Origin: Candidatus Zixiibacteriota bacterium
GTDB lineage: Bacteria; Zixibacteria; MSB-5A5; GN15; JAAZOE01
Reading direction: 5' to 3'
Length of the DNA: 39,757 bases
Assembly (NCBI GenBank): GCA_030668485.1
Contig: DAOUTW010000043.1
Span: 1 to 39,757, forward strand
The notes below the pieces were generated by a model. The model was not told the DNA's origin and ran no database searches. It saw only the letters and a list, made by a program, of their open reading frames with translations. Of the stretch, positions 2,516-26,962 are shown piece after piece; positions within the stretch are counted from its first letter, which is position 1, and every line of letters begins with the position of its first letter. The position numbers were made by a program, and so were the translations under genes.

Positions 2516-4177
2516 TCAGCAATTCTCGTAGTTCGGGCCGCCGCCGCCTTCGGGGACTACCCAGTTTATTATCTGGTACGGATCGGCGATGTCGCAGGTC
2601 TTACAATGAACACAATTCGACGGCGTCAACTGCAAATGCGTGCCACCGCCCTCTTCATTGTCGACCATCTCATACACCTGTGCCGGACAGAAATACTGAC
2701 ACGGATTGCCATATTCCTCGGTACAACGATTATTGCAAATATCATAATCGGCAATCACCAGATGCGACGGTTGTTCCTCTTCATGCTTGGAACCGCTTTT
2801 ATATACGTCGGTCAGTTTATCGTAGATCAATTTGTTGTCAAACTTGAGCGGTGGCTTCGGTTTCTTTCCACCGGAGAAGTAGCCGGCCAGTTTTCTCATG
2901 TGCGCATGATCCGGCTCGACCTCCTGGCGGTCGAAGATCCCTCGCCCGCCGGTGATGAACTGGAATCCGAAATGAATCATCCCGGCCAGTATGCCGCCCT
3001 CAAAACCCTGATGGTAATTGCGAACTTTATACAATTCCTGCTTTGTGGGACTACTCTCAAATCTTTTTTGCATCGCCGCCAGCGTTGCTTTGGAAAAATC
3101 TTCCTTGCCGATGGCATCAATAATCGTCTCGGCGGCCATCATACCCGAATCGATCGCCATGTGGATTCCTTTTAGGCGCTGCGAATTGAGGAATCCGGCC
3201 GAATCGCCGAGGATCAGCATGTTGTCATGATACAGTTGCGGCATCGCATGATAGCCGCCCTCCGGAATCGTCTTGGCTCCGTAATGGAGCATTTCGCCGC
3301 CCTCGATGATCGGCCTGATCGACGGATGCATCTTGAATTCCTGGAACCAGCGATGCGGATCATTGGTCGGATCGGGCGAGTTGAGACTGACAGCGAATCC
3401 GACCGCCGCCATCTTGCCCGACATCTTATAGACAAATCCGCCACCGTACATATTCGATAGCAATGGCGCGCCGAAAGTATGGATAATCTCACCTTCCGAC
3501 ATCCGGCCATCGGGGATCTCCCAGATCTCCTTGACGCCGGTCAGGTACGATTGATTGATCGCCTTATCGAAGATGCCCAGTTTTTCCCCGGCTTGTTTGG
3601 CCAGCGATCCGTGGACGCCTTCGCACAGCACCGTGACCGAGGCTTTGATGATCGTCCCCGGTTCGAAATTCGATTTCGGGTTGCCTTCCTTGTCCAGCCC
3701 CATATCAACCGTTTGCACTCCGACCGTTTTCCCATTTTCCACGATCAGTTCGAAAGCGGCTGTTTCGGGATAAATCTCAACACCGGTCGCCTCGGTTTGC
3801 TCAGCCAGCCATCCGGTGAATTTATTCAGCGAAATAATATAATTGCCGTCGTTCCCCATTCCGGGCGGTGTAAAAGGGAACTTGAAATGCGATTTTTCGC
3901 TCATGTACCAGAGCGAATCGGCTCCCGCCTTGGCCTCAAACGGCATCCCCTTTTCGATATAATCTGGGATCAGGCGAGCGATACCGGACGGATCCATAAC
4001 CGCTCCCGAAAACGAATGAGCTCCGGGATGACTGCCTTTTTCGATCACCAGCACCGCCGGCGGTTCGCCACCGGCGACTTCCGCCTTTTTCATCAGGTGG
4101 TAGGCGCAAGCCAGCCCGGCCGGTCCGGCTCCAACAATCAGAACATCGACTTCCAGAACGTCGCGTTCAATATCCAT
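2516..4177 (-). CDS. Electron transfer flavoprotein-ubiquinone oxidoreductase (ETF-QO)
   Basis: 553 aa, the usual length for bacterial ETF-QO. The start ATG at 4177 follows AAGGAGA. The N-terminal dinucleotide-binding motif is GAGPAG (16-21). The middle contains the flavin and membrane-attachment region (LILGDSAGFLNSQRLKGIHMAIDSG). The C-terminus holds a ferredoxin-like 4Fe-4S domain with CTEEYGNPCQYFCPA and then NCVHCKTCDI. The enzyme passes electrons from reduced ETF, for example from acyl-CoA dehydrogenation, to membrane quinone. No etfA/etfB is in the window, so its partner is encoded elsewhere. It is a single-gene unit as far as visible. Confidence 0.93.
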   Translation of the reverse strand: MDIERDVLEVDVLIVGAGPAGLACAYHLMKKAEVAGGEPPAVLVIEKGSHPGAHSFSGAVMDPSGIARLIPDYIEKGMPFEAKAGADSLWYMSEKSHFKFPFTPPGMGNDGNYIISLNKFTGWLAEQTEATGVEIYPETAAFELIVENGKTVGVQTVDMGLDKEGNPKSNFEPGTIIKASVTVLCEGVHGSLAKQAGEKLGIFDKAINQSYLTGVKEIWEIPDGRMSEGEIIHTFGAPLLSNMYGGGFVYKMSGKMAAVGFAVSLNSPDPTNDPHRWFQEFKMHPSIRPIIEGGEMLHYGAKTIPEGGYHAMPQLYHDNMLILGDSAGFLNSQRLKGIHMAIDSGMMAAETIIDAIGKEDFSKATLAAMQKRFESSPTKQELYKVRNYHQGFEGGILAGMIHFGFQFITGGRGIFDRQEVEPDHAHMRKLAGYFSGGKKPKPPLKFDNKLIYDKLTDVYKSGSKHEEEQPSHLVIADYDICNNRCTEEYGNPCQYFCPAQVYEMVDNEEGGGTHLQLTPSNCVHCKTCDIADPYQIINWVVPEGGGGPNYENC

Positions 4178-6976: not shown

Positions 6977-7570
6977 CTACGAAAAATCGGCGGCAAACTT
7001 ACGGGCGAAGTAATCATGCAACAGAGCCGACCCTGTCAATTCCGGATGAAAAGCAGACACCAGGACATTATTTTGAGCTAAAAGAACCGGATCGTCGCCG
7101 CACTTCAATAACGTAGTCACGCCCTCACCCACCCGGGTAACCCGGGGAGCTCGGATAAATACAAGATCCAGAGATTCGCGGTGGCCGTTGAGGGCCAGGG
7201 TTGCAGGCGCCACGGTGGAAAAAACCTGGCGGCCATAACCGTTCCGGTCGACCGCAATATCAATCGCTCCCAGCGTTTTCACCGAACGGTCATTGACTCC
7301 GGAAGCCAGCAATATCATCCCGGCGCAGGTTCCCCAAACCGGCTGCTTGCTGACGAATGACGCCAACTTATCTTCCATCCGCAGTCGCCCGAGCAACTCG
7401 GTCATTACCGTCGATTCGCCGCCGGGGATAATCAATCGTTCCACCCGGTCAAAATCTTCGGCCAAACGGACCTCGACTCCTCTGACATCGATGGAGTCGA
7501 GGATTTCCAGATGTTTTTGATAATCGCCCTGGAGAGCCAGGACGCCGACAACAGGTACCCGGTCCTTCAT
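6977..7570 (-). CDS. pdxT: Pyridoxal 5'-phosphate synthase, glutaminase subunit PdxT
   Basis: 197 aa, family length about 190-200. It releases ammonia from glutamine for the PdxS synthase. Visible signatures: [23 protein letters not shown], the nucleophile in WGTCAGMIL (C82) and the class I amidotransferase His/Glu pair in [10 protein letters not shown]. Its ATG overlaps the TGA of pdxS by 4 bp (ATGA), so the two are translationally coupled. Confidence 0.96.
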
Positions 7571-8448
7571 CGCGTGTGAAGCAATTCCTCTTCGCCGATA
7601 TTAGCGACACTAATACCCTTCATGCTGGCGCCGAGGCCGCGGGAAATTTCAACCAAGTCCTTGGGATGATCGAAACGGGCAACGGCGGTGACAATCGCCT
7701 TGGCCATTTTCTCCGGAGTTTCGGATTTAAAAATCCCCGATCCCACGAAAACAGATTCGGCTCCCAATTGCATACAAAGGGAGGCATCGGCGGGAGTTGC
7801 AATACCACCGGCGGCAAAGTTAGGCACCGGCAGCTTACCCAGTTCGGCGACTTTCATGACCAGGTCCAGCGGGACCGCCAATTCCTTAGCTCGGGAGGAC
7901 AGTTCATCTTTTCGCAAAACGGTCAGTTCTTTGATCTGCTTGTTTATAAGACGCAGATGCCGGACCGCTTCGGAGACATCACCGGTTCCGGCCTCACCTT
8001 TGGTGCGGATCATGGCCGCGCCTTCGGCAATCCGGCGCAAAGCTTCGGAAAGATTGCGACATCCGCAGACAAAAGGCACCTTGAATTGAAACTTGTCGAC
8101 ATGATTTTCATAATCGGCCGGCGTCAGTACTTCCGATTCGTCGATGAAATCGACTTCCATCGCTTCCAGAAGCTGGGCCTCGGCAAAATGACCGATACGG
8201 CATTTGGCCATCACCGGAATAGTGACGGTCGATTTAATTTTCTCGATGACCGCAGGATCGGCCATACGAGCGACGCCGCCGCCGGCCCGGATATCGGAGG
8301 GAACCCGTTCCAGAGCCATGACCGCTACCGCGCCCGCATCCTCGGCTATCTTGGCCTGCTCGGCATTGGTCACGTCCATAATCACGCCATTGCGGAGCAT
8401 TTCCGCCAGTCCCACATTAACTGTCATCAGGTCTTTTTTATTATCCAT
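7567..8448 (-). CDS. pdxS: Pyridoxal 5'-phosphate synthase subunit PdxS
   Basis: 293 aa, typical for this TIM-barrel enzyme. It builds PLP from ribose 5-phosphate, glyceraldehyde 3-phosphate and ammonia in the DXP-independent pathway. The opening [20 protein letters not shown] and [21 protein letters not shown] are diagnostic, as are [27 protein letters not shown] and [12 protein letters not shown]. The ATG at 8448 is preceded by GGGAG. PLP is the cofactor of the cysteine desulfurase encoded 2 kb away, though a regulatory link is not shown. Confidence 0.97.
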
Positions 8449-15454: not shown

Positions 15455-16597
15455 TCAGCCCCAGCGTCTGGTCAGTTTTATTTTTCTCTTCGCCAGTTCT
15501 TTTGCAAACAACCCCGGATCAACCGCCTTCTCCTGCGGGACGACACCGCGGGCTTTGATCTGCCCGGAGGCTGCCATGGCGGCAATGATCGTCACCGGGA
15601 AGGCGGTACAGCGCATCATCGCCGTCAGACCGGTTTTCATATCCTGACGATCGATGATCTCGGAAACGAGTTTCCTCTTTTTTCCCTTAATCTTGCCTTC
15701 GGTGATCAATCGTACCAGCACCAGGTCGGGATCGCCGTAGCTGAGATTTTTATCGAGAACTGCCTTCAATACCGAGCGCGGCGAGACCTTGACGCCGTCG
15801 ACAGCGATTTTCTCCCACTCTCCCAGGCCGATACCGAGCATGGTATTGAACCTGTCGCAGAATCCGGGATAGCGGATTGTCTTGTAATCGAGGTTCTTCA
15901 GAATACGTCCGTATGTTTTCGGCAGCGTCGATGTTCCGCCGGAGGTCGTGAATGCCTCCAACTTACCTATCCCCCGGAAGGATAATTCTTCGAGTCCTTC
16001 CATCGGTGGGATGGTTATTTTTTTGCCGTTTTTGATCGCGATCACCGGTTCGTAGAATTCATTGATCAAACCCTCGGCGGAGAAGACCATCTGGTAATCC
16101 AGCGGTGGACGCGGCTTCAGTGGCAACCCTCCAACCCGGATATGCAATGATTCCGGTTTGTCAAATTGGGCCAGGTCGCCGGCAGCGATGACCGAGACCA
16201 TTCCCGGCGCCAATCCGCAATCGGGGATAACTACCACCCCCGCCTTTTTGGCGGCTGCGGTCAGTTTGAACGCTGCGGCGACAGCATCGTTGTTGCCGCC
16301 CATATCCATGAAATGAGCTTTAGCTTTTATCGCCGCCTTCGCCAGTCCCGGATTGTAACGATATGTCACCGCCGATATGACGGCATCATACGGTGCGAAT
16401 AGTTTCGCAGCAGTCTTGGTATCACCGGCGTCGAACCTTTTGGCGGTGGCTTTGTCTTTGCCATATTTCTTTGCGACTTCGCGCGCCACCTTGAGATTTA
16501 TATCGAACAGCCCGATTTTTTCGACATCTTTATTATGCGCCAGATCATAAACTGCCGCCCGCCCCATCAGTCCTGCACCCACAACTGCTATTTTCAT
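15455..16597 (-). CDS. Saccharopine/lysine dehydrogenase family oxidoreductase
   Basis: 380 aa. The N-terminal Rossmann motif is VVGAGLMGRAAVYDL, then GLFDINLKVAREVAKKYG. The catalytic-domain segment GGNNDAVAAAFKLTAAAKKAGVVVIPDCGLAPGMVS is typical of saccharopine dehydrogenase-like enzymes. The length and single-domain form best match bacterial lysine 6-dehydrogenase-like or carboxynorspermidine dehydrogenase-like members. The substrate is probably a basic amino acid or polyamine precursor but cannot be fixed. The start ATG at 16597 follows AAAGGAC. The gene is convergent with the ISC operon and shares its terminator. Confidence 0.8.
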   Translation of the reverse strand: MKIAVVGAGLMGRAAVYDLAHNKDVEKIGLFDINLKVAREVAKKYGKDKATAKRFDAGDTKTAAKLFAPYDAVISAVTYRYNPGLAKAAIKAKAHFMDMGGNNDAVAAAFKLTAAAKKAGVVVIPDCGLAPGMVSVIAAGDLAQFDKPESLHIRVGGLPLKPRPPLDYQMVFSAEGLINEFYEPVIAIKNGKKITIPPMEGLEELSFRGIGKLEAFTTSGGTSTLPKTYGRILKNLDYKTIRYPGFCDRFNTMLGIGLGEWEKIAVDGVKVSPRSVLKAVLDKNLSYGDPDLVLVRLITEGKIKGKKRKLVSEIIDRQDMKTGLTAMMRCTAFPVTIIAAMAASGQIKARGVVPQEKAVDPGLFAKELAKRKIKLTRRWG

Positions 16598-16671: not shown

Positions 16672-16792
16672 GCGGCAAAAGCCGCTTTTTGGCTGTCGCG
16701 CGGATGATATGAGGTTGTGCATAATGATTGGCGTCAAAAAATGTATTGGCAAAGAGAATCGAATTCGCACCGCAAGCGGTGCGGCACCCGGC
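16672..16792 (+). repeat. Composite structured repeat, copy 1
   Basis: Begins with hairpin GCGGC-AAAA-GCCGC, then TTTTTGGCTGTCGCG, a variable middle with TGCATAA and TTGGCGTCAAA, and ends with the perfect inverted repeat GCACCGCAAGCGGTGC (16767-16782) plus GGCACCCGGC. Copy 2 at 17176-17297 has the same order. Confidence 0.8.
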
Positions 16793-17175: not shown

Positions 17176-17297
17176 GTGGCAGGGGCCACTTTTTGGCTGT
17201 CGCGTAGATGATCTGATGGCAGTGCATAAAAATTGGCGTCAAAGATGTATTGACAAAATAAATCGCATTCGCACCGCAAGCGGTGCGGCACCCGGCT
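17176..17297 (+). repeat. Composite structured repeat, copy 2
   Basis: Hairpin GTGGC-AGGG-GCCAC at 17176-17189, TTTTTGGCTGTCGCG, the TGCATAA and TTGGCGTCAAA blocks, and GCACCGCAAGCGGTGC at 17271-17286 with GGCACCCGGC after it. Same order and spacing as copy 1, with scattered substitutions between the conserved blocks. Confidence 0.8.
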
Positions 17298-17338: not shown

Positions 17339-18331
17339 TCAGGAGAAATATAGTATGGGGGACTTTCCGATCGGCGGTGCCAGCTCCACGTCATACAACT
17401 CTTTAAGCAAGTCATTTCTCAAAGACGCTTCGCTGCTATTACTTGTCCAATGTATACAAAATTTAGTTTTAAGAAACTGTGGAACACCACATGAAAAGTC
17501 ATCTTCTCTTACAATAACTATAAATTTTCTACTATCGGGCTTCTCTTCATACATATCTCCCTGAATGAGCATTGTCTCCCAGCCGACACCACCGGATCTT
17601 CTATTGGCTCGATCTGCATATCTTTTATCAGTAATAATAATTACACGTTCCGCCATATCGAGTTCGTTAGTCATCCATTGAGGAAGATCCATCCCCTTTC
17701 GTAGATGCCATTGATCCAGTCGTGCGTTAATTCCGTTCGCTCTAAGAAACGTTCCCAAATCTGCTACCCATTTTTTATGGTTTTCATTGGTCCCAGAATA
17801 ACTAATAAAAACTCTTAAATTCTTCTTAGGTGCTTTTCGCGAAAAAATGCCGGGAGTACCTTCGGCTGACAATCTGTCAAATACGCTTCGATGAAGTATA
17901 TGAATAGTTAGCTCTGTATTTTCTGGTGCGTTTTTTCGAAATCCTTGAGATAAGGCATGCACTACCCGCTCACTTTTCAGTCCGCCGGCACCAGCACCCA
18001 GAAGGGGAGCAGAAATTGCCTTGACTGACGAGTTTTCTGATGCGAAATCCCCTAAAATCTCCCCTATCTTCTCAATGGCTGTTTCATTGGATTCCATGTG
18101 GCGAACTGAAACGGCAAAGGCAACGTACTGAGATATGTTTTCAGCACCTTTGAATGGTATAATTTCAACGCTACCCAGATCGAGACCCTTTCGCGGTCTC
18201 GGAATCACATATTGAAGTAGTCTATCAGCAACAGCACGCGTAACCGTTCCTCCAGTTGAACATGGAAGAACGATAAGATCAGATGGGCCATCAAAAAGGT
18301 CCCCCAGTTTTAACCTGACTATTGCAGACAT
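17339..18331 (-). CDS. Macro domain-SEFIR (TIR-like) fusion protein, candidate immune effector
   Basis: 330 aa. The start ATG at 18331 has a strong AAGGAGGT. Residues 1-150 look like a macro (ADP-ribose-binding) domain: IVLPCSTGGTV, then SAPLLGAGAGGL and the terminal strand LTIHILHRS. After a basic linker (SRKAPKKN), residues 172-295 form a SEFIR/TIR domain: RVFISYSGTNENHKKWV (FISYS at 175-179), GINARLDQWHLRKGMDLPQWM, ERVIIITDKRY, and GGVGWETM with E252 as candidate catalytic Glu. No signal peptide or membrane helix is seen. TIR/SEFIR domains in bacterial immunity cleave or rework NAD+, and macro domains bind ADP-ribose derivatives; in Thoeris-type defence these sit in separate proteins. No partner gene is adjacent. 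The architecture is seen; the defence role is inference. Confidence 0.8.
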   Translation of the reverse strand: MSAIVRLKLGDLFDGPSDLIVLPCSTGGTVTRAVADRLLQYVIPRPRKGLDLGSVEIIPFKGAENISQYVAFAVSVRHMESNETAIEKIGEILGDFASENSSVKAISAPLLGAGAGGLKSERVVHALSQGFRKNAPENTELTIHILHRSVFDRLSAEGTPGIFSRKAPKKNLRVFISYSGTNENHKKWVADLGTFLRANGINARLDQWHLRKGMDLPQWMTNELDMAERVIIITDKRYADRANRRSGGVGWETMLIQGDMYEEKPDSRKFIVIVREDDFSCGVPQFLKTKFCIHWTSNSSEASLRNDLLKELYDVELAPPIGKSPILYFS

Positions 18332-18614: not shown

Positions 18615-18853
18615 TACAACAACTGCCGTCTTTTGCGGATGAACCATTCCAACAATAATGTGAAGACGATGACAATTAATAATATCCAATGATCCCAAAG
18701 ACGGATGTCATGAGTTTCCTCAATCTCAACCACTTCCATGTCGAGAGCATTAATCAAGGGCTGGATATTTTTATATGATGCGAACATCCCGCCGGAATTA
18801 CTCGCCGTCTGCGCCAGATATGTCCAGTCGACATCGCTGAAGGCGGTCTCGCG
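18615..18853 (-). pseudogene. 3' fragment of a second VWA-domain gene
   Basis: These 239 bp align without gaps to 23716-23954, the last 239 bp of the intact VWA gene, with about 12 differences by eye. The stop codon is kept (TAG against TAA) and the encoded end ...RKRRQLL is identical. Most differences are silent or conservative (ATC/ATT, GTC/GTT, I/V), and one is V/T. This suggests the fragment comes from a paralogue that evolved as a working gene before being cut, rather than a fresh copy. The 5' boundary is abrupt at 18853-18855, where an 18-bp sequence shared with the RAYT flank begins. Confidence 0.85.
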
Positions 18854-18968
18854 ACGGGTGGCCCACCATTTAGGGCTTGTTGAAAAAGTCGGTTAGACGT
18901 TATTGATTGAGAACTCTACTAAATATTTGAGGTCTGGCCCTTATGAAGCGTGCGATCACTGAGTAAGA

Positions 18969-18998
18969 ATTCGCACCGCAAGCGGTGCGGCACCCGGC
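18969..18998 (+). repeat. Dispersed GCACCGC palindrome, copy 3
   Basis: ATTCGCACCGCAAGCGGTGC followed by GGCACCCGGC, identical in its core to the ends of the composite repeats at 16764-16792 and 17268-17297. The upstream composite part is absent here, so the palindrome unit can occur alone. Confidence 0.8.
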
Positions 18999-19154
18999 AT
19001 CTTGCATGACATATATCTCCTTTCTTATTCATCTCTCCTACTAAAGGATTTGATGCCGGGATCTACATCGATTTGGTGGTGATTTTGCAAAAGCCGGCAG
19101 CGAGATTGTCGAAACCGCAGGGGGTTCGACCTATGGATCTGTGCACCAGTCGGA

Positions 19155-19180
19155 GTTGGCGCACGAGGACGTACGCCAAC
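19155..19180 (+). repeat. Dispersed GGACGTAC hairpin, clearest copy
   Basis: GTTGGCG at 19155-19161 pairs with CGCCAAC at 19174-19180 around the loop CACGAGGACGTA. Related copies lie at 960-985 (ATTGG/CCAAT arms), about 17304-17331 and about 23434-23457. Arms differ between copies while the GGACGTAC-type loop is kept best. Confidence 0.65.
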
Positions 19181-19208
19181 CACGGAATATGTACGATCTA
19201 AAACGACC

Positions 19209-22200
19209 TTATTTCCTCAACGGCCAATCACAATTCTCAATCCATTCTTCGCAAGTAACGGGAGGCGGACCGCCTTTGAAAATATATGAAATAATATACA
19301 CTGCGTCTCCGACGTTGCATAAGCAATCACCATTAGCATCGCCGCTGCATATGGGATAAGGGGTGGGAGCTGGGCCGCCCTTGAAGACGTAGTTGATGAT
19401 GTATACGGCATCGCCGACATTTACACTGCCATCTCCGTTAGCATCACCCGGTATGCAATCGCATGGGAGAGAACAGCGGATTTCGGGATGGAAATCGAGG
19501 AAAGCATTGGCACCATCCACATTTTCCATTAATAGGATTCCATCTGCATCATCACGAGATGTAGCAAGGATCATAGTCACACATTGCGTATCATATGGCT
19601 GTAGGTCATATACATCAAATGTTACTAGCGAAAATAAATCCTCACAGGAATCAACGGCGGTTGTGTGATATCCATCAGTCGCAGTCATTAACTCAAATAT
19701 GGTATCCGCAGGCAGGGGAGCATCACCGCCAAAAGGCCCACTGGCATAAATAAAGACATCATTCTCAAGGGTCATGGAGTTCTTGAACTCATCCAACAGA
19801 ACCTCTGAATATCGGGGCGCGGCGATTCCTCCATATCTTTGGCAGGCTGCTGTGGAGTCGCACGGATCACTGTCACAACAGTATTGAAATAGAAGTCGCC
19901 GGGACTCATCAAATCCGGATTCATTCTTTGAACCGCTTTCATGGGATGGAATATCCCAATCAAGGATTTCCCCGACAGCCACGGAGTCCAGGGAACTGTC
20001 GGTTCTATTCCAGAAAAAGAGCTTCGCTATCACAAAGCCGCAGTTTCCTAAAGCTTCCGGCGTGTAATATTCAGCGATTAATCCAATAGCCGAATCCGCC
20101 GCAAGGAACTCGATCGAGGTCTTGTGGTAGTCCGGATTACTGGTCGAATCGATGATTATTGAATCGAGGGGACGTAATCCGTTATCTGAGGTGAAGATAT
20201 TATCGTATGCGAAGAAACACTTCGGGGTAGAATTGACCATTCGACAAATTATAGGCGAACCGTCATAGAGGTAGATGTCTGCGCAATATTCCGGGTCCGG
20301 GGGATCAACAAAATCGAGTGACGAATTGGAGCCGCTGTTACTTAACCTCCCATTATTGTAAATTCGAAGGCGTTTGCATTCGGTAGCTATAACAGCGGAT
20401 TCGGGATAAGCAAAATCGGAGGCCACAACCAAACAGGCCGGAATAATGCGCGGGCTGTCCTCAGCCTCGTGCATGATTACAATCTCGCACCGCCAGGTCG
20501 ACGGATCAGGACTGCCGTCCGGTGCGGTAAATGTCATGCTGAGCTCCACCGTATCCGCAAGACAGCAACCAATAATACCAGAATCTGCTTCGGGATTAAC
20601 CCAGTCGTCGCCATCTATGTAATTGATACTGAAGGTATAGTTATTGTCCAGCAATCCGGGATTGACTATTTTCAGGATCACTGTAGTGTCATTGCCGGGT
20701 TTGACAACCAGAGGGTTCTCCGAATAGCACTCGCCATACCCGGACCCGGCGTCGTCCGAATATCCCGGTTCCAATACTATATCTCTGCAAGGTGTTACCA
20801 TCCACAGAACCTCGTTCATGGTGACGTCTTCTTCAAAAAGGGTTCCGGGCCATCCATCATCGACATATAGGATGTCCAGAACTGGTGTTCCGGGTTCAAT
20901 GCCCTGACAACCACTACTATCTATCCGTCCATAACGTGCCATGGATGGAGAGGCCTCACTATGACATTCGCCCTCATAGCAATCCGGAGTAAATGTATTG
21001 GTCAGGTTTTGAGGTCTATCCCACATTTGGCCGCTATCACTTGATACCGCCAGATACAATTCTCCGTTAATCACTCTTCCTTTGTAACTATAGTACTTTG
21101 ATACATCTGCACACGGATTAGCTTTGTTGCCGTATTGATTAAACAAAACATATAACTTGCCGTCACATTCGGAAATATTTATTTTGGCGACGCTTCCTGT
21201 CCTCTCAGGGATTCCACACTTACGATTAGGCATTTCCCAATCAGCATTAAATACCGTACTGATAATTGGGTTATCCTCTGACCAATGGAAAATGGCTGAC
21301 TTATAATAATCGATGCAAGTTGTAGGGGATTCCCCCAGTCTGCGATGGCTGGTCCAGATTACATGCAAATTATCATCACTCGTGAATAAGGCCGACAGAT
21401 CGCAGTATGCCCACCATTTGCCGGCATACTCAAATACATATTGAGTTATGTTACCTCCCGGATACTGGCCGTCCTCAACCATATAAGCAATCGAAGGCGC
21501 TCCATTGGCTGTAAAGATACTGTCATTGGCCCATTCACTTCCCTGATCGGTTGATAAGGCATACCAAACATTATTCCTGCTGTACAAACAGTCGGGAACA
21601 TCCGGATCACGGGTTTCGCCAAGAGGAGCGCTCCAAACAATAGCGACATCGTCATCTGTGGGCGATGCGGCTATGGTAACATTGTTATAGCTGTAAACAA
21701 CCGTATCAATGACTCGCTGTGATGACCATACACCCGATCCCGTGCCATATCCGCCGACTCGGCGATAGTATGAAATTGTCGCAGGGAAACCTGATCGAAT
21801 CCAAGTGTCATCAAGATAAGAGCTATTTCGCTCGGTTGCTACCATATGAAGGACCTGTTCGGTCCCATCGATATCCCATTCGATCTTGGGCCATAGATTA
21901 GAATTCTCATAGTTCGCGCTGTCTCTGTAGTACCAGCCCTCATAATCAAACGGATAATCGCTGGTGAATACCCCAAAAACCTGCCCCCCCGTCATGAAAT
22001 CCCAGTATGCCTTTGGATAGATAATACTATCCATCTCATTACCGGCTACCACTGCCCAGCCGCCGGGATCGACATCTACCGATACATATCCTGCCTTCCA
22101 ATTTCCGTGAATATGAATACCGCCGATTGGAAACAGGGGCGCACATTCCTCTATCTCAAAGGCCTGATAACGGATTCCTCGAATTGTGTCTGTACTGTCG

Positions 22201-22520
22201 GCCCAGGCAAAATGAATATACTCCGAATTTCGGTGTTCGATTTGTCTTCCGGACGAAGAAATCTGTTGCTCGTCAAAATGTGTCTCACCAATCAACATTG
22301 TACTGGTTCGGACATCCCTGGTCCGTAGAGGGATTTTGTAAGCACTTTCGCCGCTCAAATCATGCGGAAGGTTAGCAGCTCTACTGAAGTCAAATAAGAG
22401 CGAACGATACCCTGCATTGGCCCTCCCATCTTTTTGCCAGCGTCCAAAAGAAGGTGAAGCAGCTAAAATACAGGTGACCAAAATCGCCAGGATAATTAGG
22501 TTCGAGTACTTCCCTTTCAT
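19209..22520 (-). CDS. Large secreted dockerin-repeat protein, sialidase-like N-terminal region
   Basis: 1103 aa from the ATG at 22520, which follows GGGAGGAGAA; an upstream in-frame start would add 22 residues before the signal peptide and is rejected. Residues 1-26 form a signal peptide (MKGKYSNLIILAILVTCILA...PSFG). The long middle has repeated Trp/Asp-rich blocks and phrases such as LAVSSDSGQMWDRPQNLT and SPTDDDVAIVWSA, resembling exo-alpha-sialidase/BNR-like propeller proteins. The C-terminal ~75 residues are two dockerin-like calcium repeats (GDANGDGSVNVGDAVYIINY and GDANGDCLCNVGDAVYIISY), each followed by a GGPxPxP stretch. It is surface or secreted; the substrate is unknown. The dockerin pair is closely similar to that of the protein at 398-874. 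Confidence 0.8.
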   Translation of the reverse strand: MKGKYSNLIILAILVTCILAASPSFGRWQKDGRANAGYRSLLFDFSRAANLPHDLSGESAYKIPLRTRDVRTSTMLIGETHFDEQQISSSGRQIEHRNSEYIHFAWADSTDTIRGIRYQAFEIEECAPLFPIGGIHIHGNWKAGYVSVDVDPGGWAVVAGNEMDSIIYPKAYWDFMTGGQVFGVFTSDYPFDYEGWYYRDSANYENSNLWPKIEWDIDGTEQVLHMVATERNSSYLDDTWIRSGFPATISYYRRVGGYGTGSGVWSSQRVIDTVVYSYNNVTIAASPTDDDVAIVWSAPLGETRDPDVPDCLYSRNNVWYALSTDQGSEWANDSIFTANGAPSIAYMVEDGQYPGGNITQYVFEYAGKWWAYCDLSALFTSDDNLHVIWTSHRRLGESPTTCIDYYKSAIFHWSEDNPIISTVFNADWEMPNRKCGIPERTGSVAKINISECDGKLYVLFNQYGNKANPCADVSKYYSYKGRVINGELYLAVSSDSGQMWDRPQNLTNTFTPDCYEGECHSEASPSMARYGRIDSSGCQGIEPGTPVLDILYVDDGWPGTLFEEDVTMNEVLWMVTPCRDIVLEPGYSDDAGSGYGECYSENPLVVKPGNDTTVILKIVNPGLLDNNYTFSINYIDGDDWVNPEADSGIIGCCLADTVELSMTFTAPDGSPDPSTWRCEIVIMHEAEDSPRIIPACLVVASDFAYPESAVIATECKRLRIYNNGRLSNSGSNSSLDFVDPPDPEYCADIYLYDGSPIICRMVNSTPKCFFAYDNIFTSDNGLRPLDSIIIDSTSNPDYHKTSIEFLAADSAIGLIAEYYTPEALGNCGFVIAKLFFWNRTDSSLDSVAVGEILDWDIPSHESGSKNESGFDESRRLLFQYCCDSDPCDSTAACQRYGGIAAPRYSEVLLDEFKNSMTLENDVFIYASGPFGGDAPLPADTIFELMTATDGYHTTAVDSCEDLFSLVTFDVYDLQPYDTQCVTMILATSRDDADGILLMENVDGANAFLDFHPEIRCSLPCDCIPGDANGDGSVNVGDAVYIINYVFKGGPAPTPYPICSGDANGDCLCNVGDAVYIISYIFKGGPPPVTCEEWIENCDWPLRK

Positions 22521-22642
22521 CTTATTCTCCTCCCATTCCATTAAATTATTTAAAATGGCCCTAATCTTGATTTTTATAATTGCCATTGTTTACACGACCA
22601 GGCCATGCAGACAAAACTTCTGATAAGTAATTCAATTAATCC

Positions 22643-22780
22643 CGAAAGATGAATTACAGGATGATGCCATGCCCCTCAGGATACCGTTTGCCCCCAACTA
22701 ACGAGGACACTCTAATAACTATTATAGATCGATTTCTTTTATTATGCAAGCAAAATATCTATCCTGATCTTATTTGGCGG
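22643..22780. repeat. 138-bp direct repeat, left copy flanking the RAYT transposase
   Basis: Matches 23550-23687 over 138 bp with a single mismatch (G at 22671, T in the other copy). It reads CGAAAGATGAATTACAGG at one end and TTATTTGGCGG at the other. The two copies enclose 769 bp with the transposase gene. Such near identity shows a recent duplication. Confidence 0.92.
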
Positions 22781-22784
22781 GTGG

Positions 22785-22802
22785 CCCACCATTTATGGTG
22801 GG
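22785..22802. repeat. REP-like palindrome beside the RAYT gene
   Basis: CCCACCAT-TT-ATGGTGGG forms a perfect 8-bp stem just downstream of the transposase stop codon. RAYT enzymes act on REP palindromes often found beside their own gene, so this is the natural substrate candidate. A half copy with 18 bp of shared sequence lies at 18855-18872, at the break in the VWA fragment. Confidence 0.65.
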
Positions 22803-22814
22803 AAATCTTCAAGC

Positions 22815-23318
22815 TCAAAGTTCAAAACCATCTATCGAGATCGGAACATCCCGATCGCCTTGGTACCATCTATAGCTGGACCACGGCCAATCCCCCGGAC
22901 TCGACACCAACCTGCGCACTACCGGATTATTATGGCAATAATTAATCTTTTCTCTTACTATTTCCGGTTTCCGGCAATTATTATCATAGCATCGCCTCTG
23001 CCAGATTGCCGGCTGACCATTCGAACGTTTTAATATTTCTCGCTCTGGGGTTATTATAGCATAAGAGGCCCTGGCCTTCATTTGTCCAATTAGCAATCCC
23101 AACCTTGTTCCTTCAGGAGGATGAAGGACAAGGTGCACATGCTCCGGCATTATTACATATCCGTATATTTTTACACCATTATCGTCTCGGATCGTTATAA
23201 TTTGGGGCAGTAGCTTTTCGATAATTGTCCTGTCGGACAGGTATGGATGCCTTTTGAAACATGAAAAGGTAATGAATCTTGCAGTTCCCAAATTATCGTA
23301 ATGTCGAAGTTTTGGCAT
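22815..23318 (-). CDS. REP-associated tyrosine transposase (RAYT, Y1_Tnp family)
   Basis: 167 aa, full length for the family. The N-terminal FITFSCFKRHPYLSD, the metal-binding HVH (60-62) in VIMPEHVHLVLHPPEG, and the catalytic tyrosine Y127 in REKINYCHNNPVVRRLV are all present, as is the C-terminal DWPWSSYRWYQ. RAYTs are single-strand HUH-type nucleases thought to spread REP sequences; they are usually not in classical IS form. Here the gene lies between 138-bp direct repeats and next to a REP-like hairpin. It appears intact. Confidence 0.92.
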   Translation of the reverse strand: MPKLRHYDNLGTARFITFSCFKRHPYLSDRTIIEKLLPQIITIRDDNGVKIYGYVIMPEHVHLVLHPPEGTRLGLLIGQMKARASYAIITPEREILKRSNGQPAIWQRRCYDNNCRKPEIVREKINYCHNNPVVRRLVSSPGDWPWSSYRWYQGDRDVPISIDGFEL

Positions 23319-23500
23319 ATTCCAAAATTAATGCATGCAGGATAAAAGTCTATCACAATTTATAAAAATGTATGGCAACTATACATCGGGAAAACCAGTT
23401 TCGGGTGGGATAGTCTTACCTCAAGTAAAATAGCTGCTGCACGGGGATGTGAACCAGCCACGAGAAGAGATTGCAGCCACCTATCTGTTTTCTTAAGAAA

Positions 23501-23519
23501 CCCGGAGCAGAGCTCCGGG
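23501..23519. repeat. Dispersed CCCGGAGC hairpin, copy 1
   Basis: CCCGGAGC-AGA-GCTCCGGG followed by CCACGCA and preceded by TTCTTAAG. The same arrangement is found at 38970-38988, 15.5 kb away, with loop AAA. It is REP-like in size and shape. Confidence 0.75.
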
Positions 23520-23549
23520 CCACGCAGATTAATGGCGCCGGGCACCAGG

Positions 23550-23687
23550 CGAAAGATGAATTACAGGATGATGCCATTCCCCTCAGGATACCGTTTGCCC
23601 CCAACTAACGAGGACACTCTAATAACTATTATAGATCGATTTCTTTTATTATGCAAGCAAAATATCTATCCTGATCTTATTTGGCGG
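23550..23687. repeat. 138-bp direct repeat, right copy flanking the RAYT transposase
   Basis: Pairs with 22643-22780 at a constant offset of 907 bp, one mismatch. This copy lies next to the 3' end of the intact VWA gene, so it is probably the resident copy, with the other created by duplication or by insertion. Confidence 0.92.
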
Positions 23688-23714
23688 AATATTTAAATAA
23701 TGCGAAAAAGTTTT

Positions 23715-25892
23715 TTACAGCAACTGCCGTCTTTTGCGGATGAACCATTCCAACAATAATGTGAAGACAATAACAATTAATAATATCCAATGATCCCAAA
23801 GACGGATGTCATGAGTTTCCTCAATCTCAACCGTTTCCATGTCGAGAGCATTAATCAAGGGCTGGACATTTTTATATGATGCGAACATCCCGCCGGAATT
23901 ACTTGCCGTCTGAGATAGATACGTCCAGTCGACATCGCTGAAGGCGGTCTCGCGGTCGATATCATCGACGGCGAACTCTCCGTCGAAATCACCCAGCTTG
24001 ACCGAATCGGCATAAATTTCGGCATGGTAATCATACTCGCCCGGCGCCAGCTCTCCGACCCCAGCGATATATTTTCCCGCTTTGCCAGTAGCTGGAAGAA
24101 TCTGAGCAACGGTGGTATCGTTTCCGGCAGAGACAATGATCAGATCGCCGCTGCCGCCTTCGATCGGGCGGAATCCCTCATCATGGATCGAACCTTCAAA
24201 GGCCGGCTCTTCCCCGCTCTGGAATACTTCCTTGACCGGTTTGAAACTGATCCGGTCCGACTCATCGCTGATGGTCAACCAACGGATGGTGCTTGAAACA
24301 AACTCCCGGTAAATGGTGGCGTCGCTTCCTACACCGACCGGATAAAAGGCCCAGTGCCATAATGGTGATACCGCAAAAGCGAGTATCTTTCCGCCGCCAT
24401 GACGGCGAAAAGCGATCACCGATTTTCGGGCCTGCCCGGTTTTCGCTTCGATATAACCAAGCGGAACCGCTCCCGACCGTAGGGAATCGACCGATAGATA
24501 TTGCTTGAACGGCGGCTGGTTTTCCCATGCCGAGACTATTTCCTCGCGCGTATCGGCCAGTTTAACCACCGGATGGAACATCATCCGCGCATCGGGACTT
24601 ATTTGAAATTTTCCGTATTGTATCGGTTGCCTCTGAAGCGATCCGATCGCTATCGGAGATATCGATTCCATTCGGGATGTTGCCGACAGCGCATACTGTT
24701 CGCCCATCAGGATCATAATCGCGCCGCCGCGGTCGGTCATATACGAAAGCAGCTTATCATAATGGCTGTTGATCCGGTTAAGATTCGGATCGACCATTAT
24801 CACCAGGTCGAAACTGTTTAACTTTTCTTGAGTGCTCGGAAAGCGTTCGCCGATCCGGTTGCCACCCGGCGCATCGACGACGCGGGTTATATCATAATCA
24901 TCACGGCTTATCAGGTAGCGATTGAGAAATGCATATTCCTGGTTCAGAGATGAGCTATAGATTAAAATATTGAGTTTGCTCTTCAGGACCCGGACGGCAA
25001 AAGTGCGGCGGTTATTGAGGTCATTGGTTTCGTCGCCGGCCGCAACATCGATATTTAGAAATATCCGTCCCGGCCTGTTCGGAGTGAAGGTCAATTCCTG
25101 TTCGCTGGTTTTGCCATCCCCCGGTGATTCATCACTTTTTTGCGTCAATACCCGGTCGCCTTCCGACAGAGTAATCTGCATCCGGCTTTCGATCTCTCCC
25201 TGTTGAGAAATAATCGCCTTGATCTCGGTTTTCCGCCCGGCGTACACCACCTCGTTGAATTCGATGTCATCCAATGAAATGTCGTTATTGCGACTGGAGT
25301 CGCCGACAGCGATAGTATGGATCGGCAATCTGAGTGAGGCCGCCATATCGGGCAGGTTTTCTCCCTCAGTGGCTCGACCGTCGGAAAGAAGCAGAATATA
25401 ATCCGGGGGATTGATGGCGGCGAGTTGCCGCACCTGAGCCACCGCGCGGCCCGGATCGGTTTTATTGCCGGATAGATTCAGCCCTCGGTCGGAGACATCG
25501 AGCGATTCGGCGAAGGCATAAATTGTAAGATCGAGATTTTCGTGAAGCGGCGCCAGCGATGGGCCGTCGAGCAGATTGAGCGCCTGTTCCAGTCGTGTCG
25601 TTCCCGATTCCGATCCCAGCGGCAGGTCCATCGATGATGAACGATCGATCAGGATCGTCATTTCTTTTTTATTCTGCTTGATTTTGGTGTATGACAGGAT
25701 CGGCTGAGCCAGCGCCAGAAACAATCCGGCAAAAGCGACTCCCCGCAACACCATCAAAAACCAGCGCAATCCTCTCGGCAAAGGCGGCGTGGTCCGACGG
25801 TAATAGAGAATCGAAATCCCCAGGAGGATCAGGCACAACAGGATGGTCAGCCACAGATGACTGCCCAAAAATTCAATGTCAAAACGGTTCAT
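23715..25892 (-). CDS. Membrane-anchored von Willebrand factor A domain protein
   Basis: 725 aa. Two N-terminal membrane helices (about 13-31 and 43-62) precede a VWA domain whose MIDAS motif is intact (D83-x-S85-x-S87 in LIDRSSSMD), with ILLLSDGRATEG further on. A long periplasmic part follows, including a DUF4159/glutamine amidotransferase-like segment (FDLVIMVDPN, GGAIMILMGE), and a final membrane helix (HWILLIVIVFTLLLEWF) with a basic end. This layout matches BatA-like VWA proteins of the Bacteroidetes/Planctomycetes type, function unknown. A partial paralogue of its 3' end lies at 18615-18853. It lies 89 bp downstream of the polyprenyl synthase on the same strand. Confidence 0.85.
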   Translation of the reverse strand: MNRFDIEFLGSHLWLTILLCLILLGISILYYRRTTPPLPRGLRWFLMVLRGVAFAGLFLALAQPILSYTKIKQNKKEMTILIDRSSSMDLPLGSESGTTRLEQALNLLDGPSLAPLHENLDLTIYAFAESLDVSDRGLNLSGNKTDPGRAVAQVRQLAAINPPDYILLLSDGRATEGENLPDMAASLRLPIHTIAVGDSSRNNDISLDDIEFNEVVYAGRKTEIKAIISQQGEIESRMQITLSEGDRVLTQKSDESPGDGKTSEQELTFTPNRPGRIFLNIDVAAGDETNDLNNRRTFAVRVLKSKLNILIYSSSLNQEYAFLNRYLISRDDYDITRVVDAPGGNRIGERFPSTQEKLNSFDLVIMVDPNLNRINSHYDKLLSYMTDRGGAIMILMGEQYALSATSRMESISPIAIGSLQRQPIQYGKFQISPDARMMFHPVVKLADTREEIVSAWENQPPFKQYLSVDSLRSGAVPLGYIEAKTGQARKSVIAFRRHGGGKILAFAVSPLWHWAFYPVGVGSDATIYREFVSSTIRWLTISDESDRISFKPVKEVFQSGEEPAFEGSIHDEGFRPIEGGSGDLIIVSAGNDTTVAQILPATGKAGKYIAGVGELAPGEYDYHAEIYADSVKLGDFDGEFAVDDIDRETAFSDVDWTYLSQTASNSGGMFASYKNVQPLINALDMETVEIEETHDIRLWDHWILLIVIVFTLLLEWFIRKRRQLL

Positions 25893-25981: not shown

Positions 25982-26962
25982 TTAATTGTCCCGGGAAACG
26001 GTGAATTCCAGAATATCCTTGAGCGTGCGCAGATAAACGCTGTTTTTCATGGTATCCAACACCGATCCGGCTCGATCCGAATAATTGTGCGCGATATCAT
26101 AGGCGTAATCGATACCGCCCTGTTCGGTAACAAATTTCACCACTCGCTTGACGCCGGTCTTATTGATACCGTTATCAAGGATACCGGCGATTTCCGCCCG
26201 GACTTTTTTCGATGACTTCGACAACGAATATATCAACGGCAGAGTAACCTTGCCCTGAAGCAGGTCGCTGCCGGGCTGCTTTCCGGTTTTCCGGCTGACG
26301 CCTACAAAATCGAGCAGATCATCGGCGATCTGAAAGGCGATACCGACATTTTCGCCGAATTCGCGGTACTTTTTCCGTTGAGCCGCCGGGGCTTTTTTTA
26401 TAATCGGGCCGACCTCGCAGGCAGTCGCAAACAAAGCCGCGGTTTTATCGGAAATGATTTTGATATAATCGCTCTCCGGCAAATCGTAATTGGCACACTC
26501 CTCGATCTGGCGCAGTTCTCCGAAACTGACCCTGGCCGTGGCGCGGCTGATCGAATCGATTACCTCGGAGGAACCGGTTTTGACCATGATAACGAATGCT
26601 CGCGAAAACAGAAAATCACCCATCAAAACCGACACGAGATTATTCCAGCGATGATTGATTGTCTCCTGCCCGCGACGGATGTCCGATTCATCGACAACGT
26701 CGTCGTGCAACAAAGTGGCGGTATGGATCAATTCTATTGCTAATGCCGCCTCGACCAGCTTGGGTGAATAGTAGCCACCGCCCCGGGAAGAGAGAAACAG
26801 TATCGCCGGCCGAAGACGTTTTCCCCGCGAAGCCATGATATGTTTTATCACCGAGTTGATCAGGTCCGATTCGGCCGAAAGATATTTATCCAGCTTGGAA
26901 TTAAAAGCCTGAAGGTCCTTGGCTACCGGCCGGGTCATTTCTTTTAAGTCAAGTTTCGTCAT
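25982..26962 (-). CDS. Trans-polyprenyl diphosphate synthase
   Basis: 326 aa. Both Asp-rich motifs are present: LLHDDVVDESDIRRG (DDVVD 87-91) and QIADDLLDFVG (DDLLD 214-218), with GKRLRPAILFL and KTAALFATACEVG. The enzyme condenses IPP onto an allylic diphosphate. A small Ala at the fifth position before the first motif (ATLLHDD) suggests a long product such as the octaprenyl or heptaprenyl quinone side chain rather than farnesyl. Substrate supply would come from the IspH pathway. It lies between mazG (99-bp gap) and the VWA gene on the same strand. Confidence 0.93.
   Translation of the reverse strand: MTKLDLKEMTRPVAKDLQAFNSKLDKYLSAESDLINSVIKHIMASRGKRLRPAILFLSSRGGGYYSPKLVEAALAIELIHTATLLHDDVVDESDIRRGQETINHRWNNLVSVLMGDFLFSRAFVIMVKTGSSEVIDSISRATARVSFGELRQIEECANYDLPESDYIKIISDKTAALFATACEVGPIIKKAPAAQRKKYREFGENVGIAFQIADDLLDFVGVSRKTGKQPGSDLLQGKVTLPLIYSLSKSSKKVRAEIAGILDNGINKTGVKRVVKFVTEQGGIDYAYDIAHNYSDRAGSVLDTMKNSVYLRTLKDILEFTVSRDN

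Follow-up and report, generated by a model that had tools for sequence, protein, structure and literature searches.

A second copy of a gene end beside half of a REP hairpin

The window analysed here is a stretch of 39,757 nucleotides that makes up the whole of one contig (C103) of a 4.5-Mb draft genome in 139 contigs. It raises the question of how the end of an intact gene came to lie a second time, on the far side of another gene and directly against one half of a REP hairpin. An initial annotation had proposed that a second working gene once stood there and that an event related to REPs, or to the REP-associated tyrosine transposase (RAYT) nearby, removed all but its last part. The genes concerned are the following.

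15455–16597, minus strand: saccharopine dehydrogenase family gene, conserved downstream neighbour
18615–18853, minus strand: displaced 3′-end copy with stop codon (copy B2), likely the original end of the gene, with its native downstream surroundings
19209–22586, minus strand: gene for a 1125-aa dockerin-domain protein, member of a multi-copy family, between the two copies
23715–25892, minus strand: intact gene for a 725-aa protein, first annotated as "VWA"
23716–23954, minus strand: 3′ end of the intact gene (copy B1), in direct repeat with B2
25982–26962, minus strand: polyprenyl synthetase, conserved upstream neighbour

Direct-repeat comparison agrees with the copy as first described: 18615–18853 and 23716–23954 form a direct repeat of 239 nt with 95% identity and a spacing of 5101 bp, and both keep the stop codon (TAG in the fragment, TAA in the gene). 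When the last base of the stop codon is counted, 12 of 240 positions differ, and three of 79 residues are changed (S660A, V676I and T687V). The copies share nothing past the stop codon on one side, nor past 18853 on the other. A match search of the whole genome with the protein returns only the gene and the fragment, with no further remnant. As for the name of the gene, a DxSxS-like stretch is present in the translation, and the VWA label comes from this stretch and nothing else; neither Pfam (E up to 0.1) nor NCBIfam (E up to 0.01) names a family for the protein.

Copy number and gene order in related genomes

The earlier proposal pointed to relatives with a tandem pair of such genes, and none was found: among the 60 relatives searched, all from outside the genus, the 725-aa protein is matched in 55, including all 41 good genomes, and in two copies in none of them (double match rows in G003, G010 and G031 are pieces of a single gene). 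Together with the lack of any other remnant in this genome, this speaks against a tandem whole-gene duplicate that once worked and of which a REP- or RAYT-related deletion left the last 239 bp. Such a history would require a duplication, a dockerin gene in between and a precise deletion, and the DNA downstream is not common to both copies. In its favour, a REP does lie at the break and the excess of silent differences described below means that both copies were under selection; we nevertheless consider it unlikely.

Gene order points elsewhere. In the relatives whose loci were fetched, the gene lies after the polyprenyl synthetase gene, and in the seven loci with both sides on the contig the spacer to the saccharopine dehydrogenase gene measures 0.1–2.7 kb (89 bp in G041 and 2.7 kb in G008 being the extremes). 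In the window, the dehydrogenase gene is 2.0 kb from the fragment and 7.1 kb from the intact gene. Since the first distance fits the relatives and the second does not, the fragment is the likely native 3′ end, and 18615–18853 is probably the displaced original end of the gene. The residues at two informative positions suit this assignment: among five family members, A660 of the fragment occurs in two and S660 of the gene in one, while I676 of the fragment occurs in two and V676 of the gene in none. The simplest reading is that most of 18854–23714 was inserted and the gene end duplicated.

The spacer of G008 holds a similarly oriented 729-aa gene with a dockerin stretch at its end, and the dockerin gene of the window could therefore predate the REP; it may be an old neighbour, older here than the REP itself. 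The other six spacers gave no dockerin-type match. The family is many-copy and present in all 21 genomes searched, and the dockerin-ended gene of G008 may lie there by chance, such genes being numerous in these genomes. Given the many copies and the gene at the same place in G008, we rejected the idea that the dockerin gene is a locus-specific passenger. Several full-length copies of dockerin-domain proteins of ~1,100 aa, with 46–53% identity, occur in the source genome itself (e.g., C89:58062, C138:5 and C36:70173).

Origin of the REP half-site

The sequences next to the fragment are these.

18855–18872, plus strand: left half of the REP-1 hairpin (C GGGTGG CCCACCATTTA), broken at the TTTA loop
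18873–18968, plus strand: left part of a MITE-like repeat with end GGGCTTGTTGA
18969–18998, plus strand: REP-3 palindrome where the MITE is cut off; also at 16761–16792 and 17267–17296
22778–22802, plus strand: intact REP-1, abutting the duplication D2a listed further below

The break point does coincide with a REP, as was first noticed: the half-site begins one base past the end of the copy at 18853, and 18855–18872 is identical to 22778–22795. As a single strand, the complete REP (GGGTGG-CCCACCA-TTTA-TGGTGGG) forms a stem of 7 bp capped by a TTTA loop. The half-site stops at the end of this loop (18872), and there GGGCTTGTTGA starts. The 13-mer CGGGTGGCCCACC has six exact copies in the genome (none for the reversed control), and in three of them, at C103, C126 and C64, the break between CCCACCATTTA and GGGC(T/C)TGTTGA falls at the same base. 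The sequence after the break (18873–18995) has six other matches in the genome. The copy at C34 shows the terminal inverted repeats and the short target duplication that define a MITE, with ends GGGCTTGTTGA ... TCAACAAGCCC and a flanking TTTA duplication. The copy in the window retains the left end alone; its right end is gone at the REP-3 palindrome.

Judged from these sequences, the half-site is an intact REP hairpin with a MITE-like element landed in its TTTA loop. A half-site made in this way says nothing about a cut by the RAYT. We infer that the REP was whole when the MITE struck, so that the half-site marks no deletion end. The part of the initial annotation in which a REP or RAYT event removed the rest of the gene gives way here to an insertion into the REP loop; in view of the MITE break, the single-copy relatives and the gene order, deletion of a second gene up to the half-site was abandoned as first choice. 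The right half of the hairpin was not found after the MITE element at C103, C126 or C64, and its later loss must therefore be assumed. More ends of this type sit in the loops of other REPs; GGGCTTGTTGA ends of MITEs or IS elements are seen there in both orientations at L110 (C126, 214–410), L107 (C64, 9457–9566) and L118 (C34, 9242–9392). Insertion into REPs is already described in the retrieved text of PMC1525189.

Silent differences between the copies

That the differences are mostly silent holds up under counting: 7 synonymous changes are found in 49 sites and 4 non-synonymous changes in 188 (Fisher p = 0.002). Neutral drift of the fragment would predict about 13 replacement changes, whereas four are seen in all (P = 0.003), which rules out simple duplication followed by neutral drift and shows that both copies diverged inside working genes. 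To this extent the earlier argument from silent changes stands, whereas a second full gene in this genome finds no support among the relatives; an allele in another strain explains the silent differences equally well. Comparable values were obtained at two other loci described below, namely the pair at L158 (pS 0.34, pN 0.036; 3e-5 in the same drift test) and the coding part of a thioredoxin pair (two synonymous changes, no non-synonymous one). Copies of a pair can thus have diverged as working alleles. Since plain duplication with drift is excluded, recombination must have contributed as well: one side may later have undergone exchange with a diverged allele, or else the element brought the flanks of a donor with it.

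Homologous recombination could also have produced the whole arrangement. The gene end of another strain together with its downstream DNA, circularised at the REP, would have entered by one crossover in the 239-bp end; the gene would have gained the end of the donor, and its own end would have been displaced. The same product results from integrative elements of the kind that replace the 3′ end of a gene, such as e14 in icd: a gene with a full end, the displaced end as a fragment and mostly silent differences. Recombination of this sort would account for the allele-like divergence found here, at L158 and at the thioredoxin gene. The order gene-B1-insert-B2 follows from it directly, and the dockerin gene could be the native neighbour of the donor. 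However, the two main ORFs scanned between the copies (dockerin and Y1) gave no match to the integrase family and no recombinase, and the tight bounding of the element on both sides by a REP and an inverted REP at L208, L360 and L361 (see below) would be left unexplained. We regard this origin as rather unlikely.

A RAYT element with its own duplication

Between the two gene-end copies lies a RAYT gene with the following surroundings.

22643–22780: D2a, 138-bp duplication on the left of the RAYT element
22815–23318, minus strand: RAYT gene (NF047646, 105.3 bits against a cut-off of 80; Y1_Tnp)
23501–23523, minus strand: inverted REP-2 (GTGG and hairpin)
23550–23687: D2b, right 138-bp duplication, one difference from D2a

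The gene is flanked by REPs with a GTGG head and hairpin, REP-1 on one side and the inverted REP-2 on the other, and its translation contains EHVHL and INYCHNNPV, candidate sequences for the HUH motif and the catalytic tyrosine. The left copy of D2 runs into REP-1. RAYT matches in this genome number 13 at about 11 places; on plasmids, looked at as a sign of movement, RAYTs appear in only four records, all about 30% identical. At C60, a decayed RAYT lies between a REP and an inverted REP, with 104 bp of thioredoxin gene-end DNA on both sides, made up of roughly 70 bases from the end of the coding sequence and some bases beyond it. The geometry of a duplicate, a REP and what follows it, and again the duplicate is common to the 239-bp pair, the window RAYT (138 bp) and the C60 thioredoxin gene (104 bp). 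At the right edge of the 239-bp pair, no hairpin was found at 23715, and the right end of the stretch between the copies has no inverted REP. At the other fetched loci of this genome that carry REP-1-like sites, the flanks are not duplicated in this way, and we discarded REP-1 copies as a general source of flank duplication.

Duplicated host DNA at other RAYT loci

RAYT loci in relatives and elsewhere in the class were hand-chosen among the matches listed, two of the three sets giving priority to the nearest RAYTs. The 182 entries (80, 60 and 42) were reduced to 166 (68, 60 and 38) by dropping 16 with less than 300 bp on one side. Control segments came from these same loci, 900 bp or more (60-bp rule) or 950 bp or more (unique filter) away from the RAYT, and were not matched for the repeat density beside RAYT. 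Under the first rule, which asked for a direct repeat of 60 bp or more with its copies on the two sides of the RAYT, each no more than 400 bp away, 17 of 68 loci were positive against 2 of 357 controls in one set, and 14 of 60 against 0 of 373 in another, all 14 of which looked like REP arrays; the replication set, weak by itself, gave 6 of 38 against 2 of 232, with one host-DNA case. Many loci positive under this rule are REP arrays. A filter for unique duplications, which removes sequences recurring elsewhere in the locus and has a minimum of 30 bp, retained 15 of 166 RAYT loci against 1 of 1,094 control segments (p = 5e-13). The remaining 151 fail it, and 44 of the other loci have repeat-type pairs. 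L293 and L315, from the 60-locus set, surfaced only under this filter.

By eye, in a selection made after the data were seen, host-DNA duplication is found at 13 of the 166 loci: D2 of the window, L114, L157, L158, L159, L190, L193 (doubtful), L208, L293, L315, L360, L361 and L366. Among these, L159, L193, L208 and L360 were added although the filter had called them repeats, on account of gene ends or hairpins inside; L149, L171, L178, L194, L317 and L332 passed the filter and were rejected as REPs or dispersed repeats. L198 (118 bp) lies beyond the distance limit and was left out of the count. At the 13 loci the elements measure 396–880 bp and the duplications 37–220 bp. Gene 3′ ends are duplicated at L114, L208, L315, L360 and L361, and gene 5′ ends or promoters at L158 (protein kinase), L190 (peptidyl-tRNA hydrolase), L159 and L366, the assignments for L114, L158 and L190 being based on Pfam. 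As far as the fetched DNA shows, the gene keeps a complete copy of its end at these loci. An automatic search placed a hairpin within 16 bp of the left repeat at 8 of the 13 loci, to which L158 was added by eye, and within 10 bp of the right repeat at L190, L193, L208, L360 and L361; at L114 an inverted REP was seen by eye.

Repeats of another kind were also encountered. L369 (G118:C86) has two RAYT genes, equal in length and in match score and separated by 1.3 kb, as well as a direct repeat of 103 bp (1723–1825 and 2982–3084). At L141, a stretch upstream of the gene repeats the 3′ end of the RAYT itself together with the REP sequence that follows (7368–7555 and 8093–8276); this is probably what remains of a tandem RAYT.

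Empty sites

At two loci, the direct repeat at both ends of the element has a single-copy counterpart in a relative. At L208 (G026) 117 bp are duplicated, while G039 and G057 carry the same two genes round one copy and have no RAYT there; in G052 both flanks are present, close together. For L190 (G023), G035 has a single copy of the segment. The comparison for the 239-bp copy is one of gene-level synteny only, and that for the thioredoxin duplicate is uninformative, the loci of the relatives being without a clear thioredoxin gene there.

In a draft of 139 contigs with repeats at every junction, an artefact of assembly or of strain mixture might produce such patterns. The duplicates differ in sequence, however (at 1 of 138 and 12 of 240 positions), and the same pattern recurs in several independent assemblies and at L157 of G008, a one-contig genome, which speaks against assembly error. 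We hold an artefact to be very improbable.

A proposed course of events

Most likely, the cause of the arrangement is a REP-bounded insertion with a long target duplication and not the loss of a second gene. The history that we tentatively prefer starts from one gene only, near whose 3′ end a REP-bounded element of the RAYT type would have inserted, duplicating 239 bp of target. The gene would have retained a complete end (23716–23954), while the other copy would have remained across the element, joined to the original downstream DNA and lying against the REP (18615–18853). In the putative order of what followed, a MITE entered the REP loop and lost its right part at the REP-3 repeat, and then came the internal insertion of another REP-RAYT element, which made a 138-bp duplication of its own. 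Exchange of one copy with a diverged allele of the same gene, or its derivation from one, would have given the silent differences. Of all this, the repeats, the order of the genes, the junctions of REP and MITE and the recurring duplication of host DNA round RAYT elements are observed, whereas the long target duplication by the RAYT, the sequence of events and the way in which the dockerin gene came between the copies are inferred. Against this history, 4,862 bp separate the copies, compared with 396–880 bp for the 13 RAYT elements, and this interval contains a large dockerin gene that could not be placed in such an element. The 239-bp repeat furthermore ends inside the stop codon, which insertion does not predict. 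In view of the dockerin gene and of the allele-like divergence, the rival explanations retain some likelihood.

The recurrent duplications suggest that REP elements copy about 40 to 240 letters of their landing site on insertion. In a unit of REP, RAYT and inverted REP, both strands begin, at the 5′ end, with a GTGG head and its hairpin. According to the retrieved text of PMC8266576, RAYT cleavage leaves a 5′ phosphotyrosine and a 3′ OH. Each 5′ end of the element might be joined to a 3′ OH of the target at predicted nicks on opposite strands, 40–240 nt apart, and gap filling between the staggered nicks would then produce the long duplications. It is a serious possibility, though one that we advance with caution, that the RAYT genes of this class are autonomous transposons that cut opposite strands about 40–240 nt apart and leave long direct duplications.

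Relation to known systems

RAYTs, REPs, REPINs and the insertion of IS elements into REPs are already known. The loci described here resemble the RAYT/REPtron (TnpAREP) in their NCBIfam equivalog match and in the GTGG-headed REP hairpins near both ends, with the far end inverted, and differ in that some are flanked by 37–220 bp of duplicated host DNA. The retrieved portions of PMC8266576 and PMC6006769 report no evidence of tnpAREP mobility and call the mechanism of REP/RAYT dissemination unresolved, and those of PMC2817692 state that IS-like signs of tnpAREP mobility were not found. With the IS200/IS605 transposons they share the Y1 transposase family (Y1_Tnp). According to the same portions of PMC2817692, IS200/IS605 elements make no larger target site duplications, whereas larger duplications of host DNA are present at the 13 RAYT loci selected by eye, the others having none or repeat-type pairs. 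REPINs, as presented in the accessible part of Bertels and Rainey (2011), occur in this genome as REP-spacer-inverted REP units, for instance at L108 (9829–9901); this one is without a direct repeat of at least 60 bp, whereas the duplicated sites carry RAYT genes. The GGGCTTGTTGA ends found repeatedly in REP loops recall the REP-targeting IS elements of Tobes and Pareja (2006, accessible part) and are an ordinary case of that kind, involving a different element. The retrieved parts of the open-licence literature contained no description of long target duplications round RAYT genes.

The finding in the window is real and modest in itself. If the RAYT genes of this class are indeed such transposons, this would be direct sequence evidence for RAYT transposition in a mode unlike that of IS200/IS605, and gene termini could be struck without loss of the gene. 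Long host-DNA duplications at REP-bounded RAYTs, combined with single-copy empty sites, are a trace of movement for which any genome can be screened. Short pieces of gene ends that lie next to REPs and resemble the remains of paralogues would be explained by them as well.

Other features of the spacer

Adjoining the saccharopine dehydrogenase gene is a 113-bp direct repeat (86% identity, 16681–16792 and 17185–17296) that holds the REP-3 palindrome. The spacer between fragment and dehydrogenase gene also contains a TIR/SEFIR gene of 330 aa (17339–18331; Pfam 7e-15) with a strong PADLOC match to bSEFIR (6e-54), which is likely an anti-phage defence gene.
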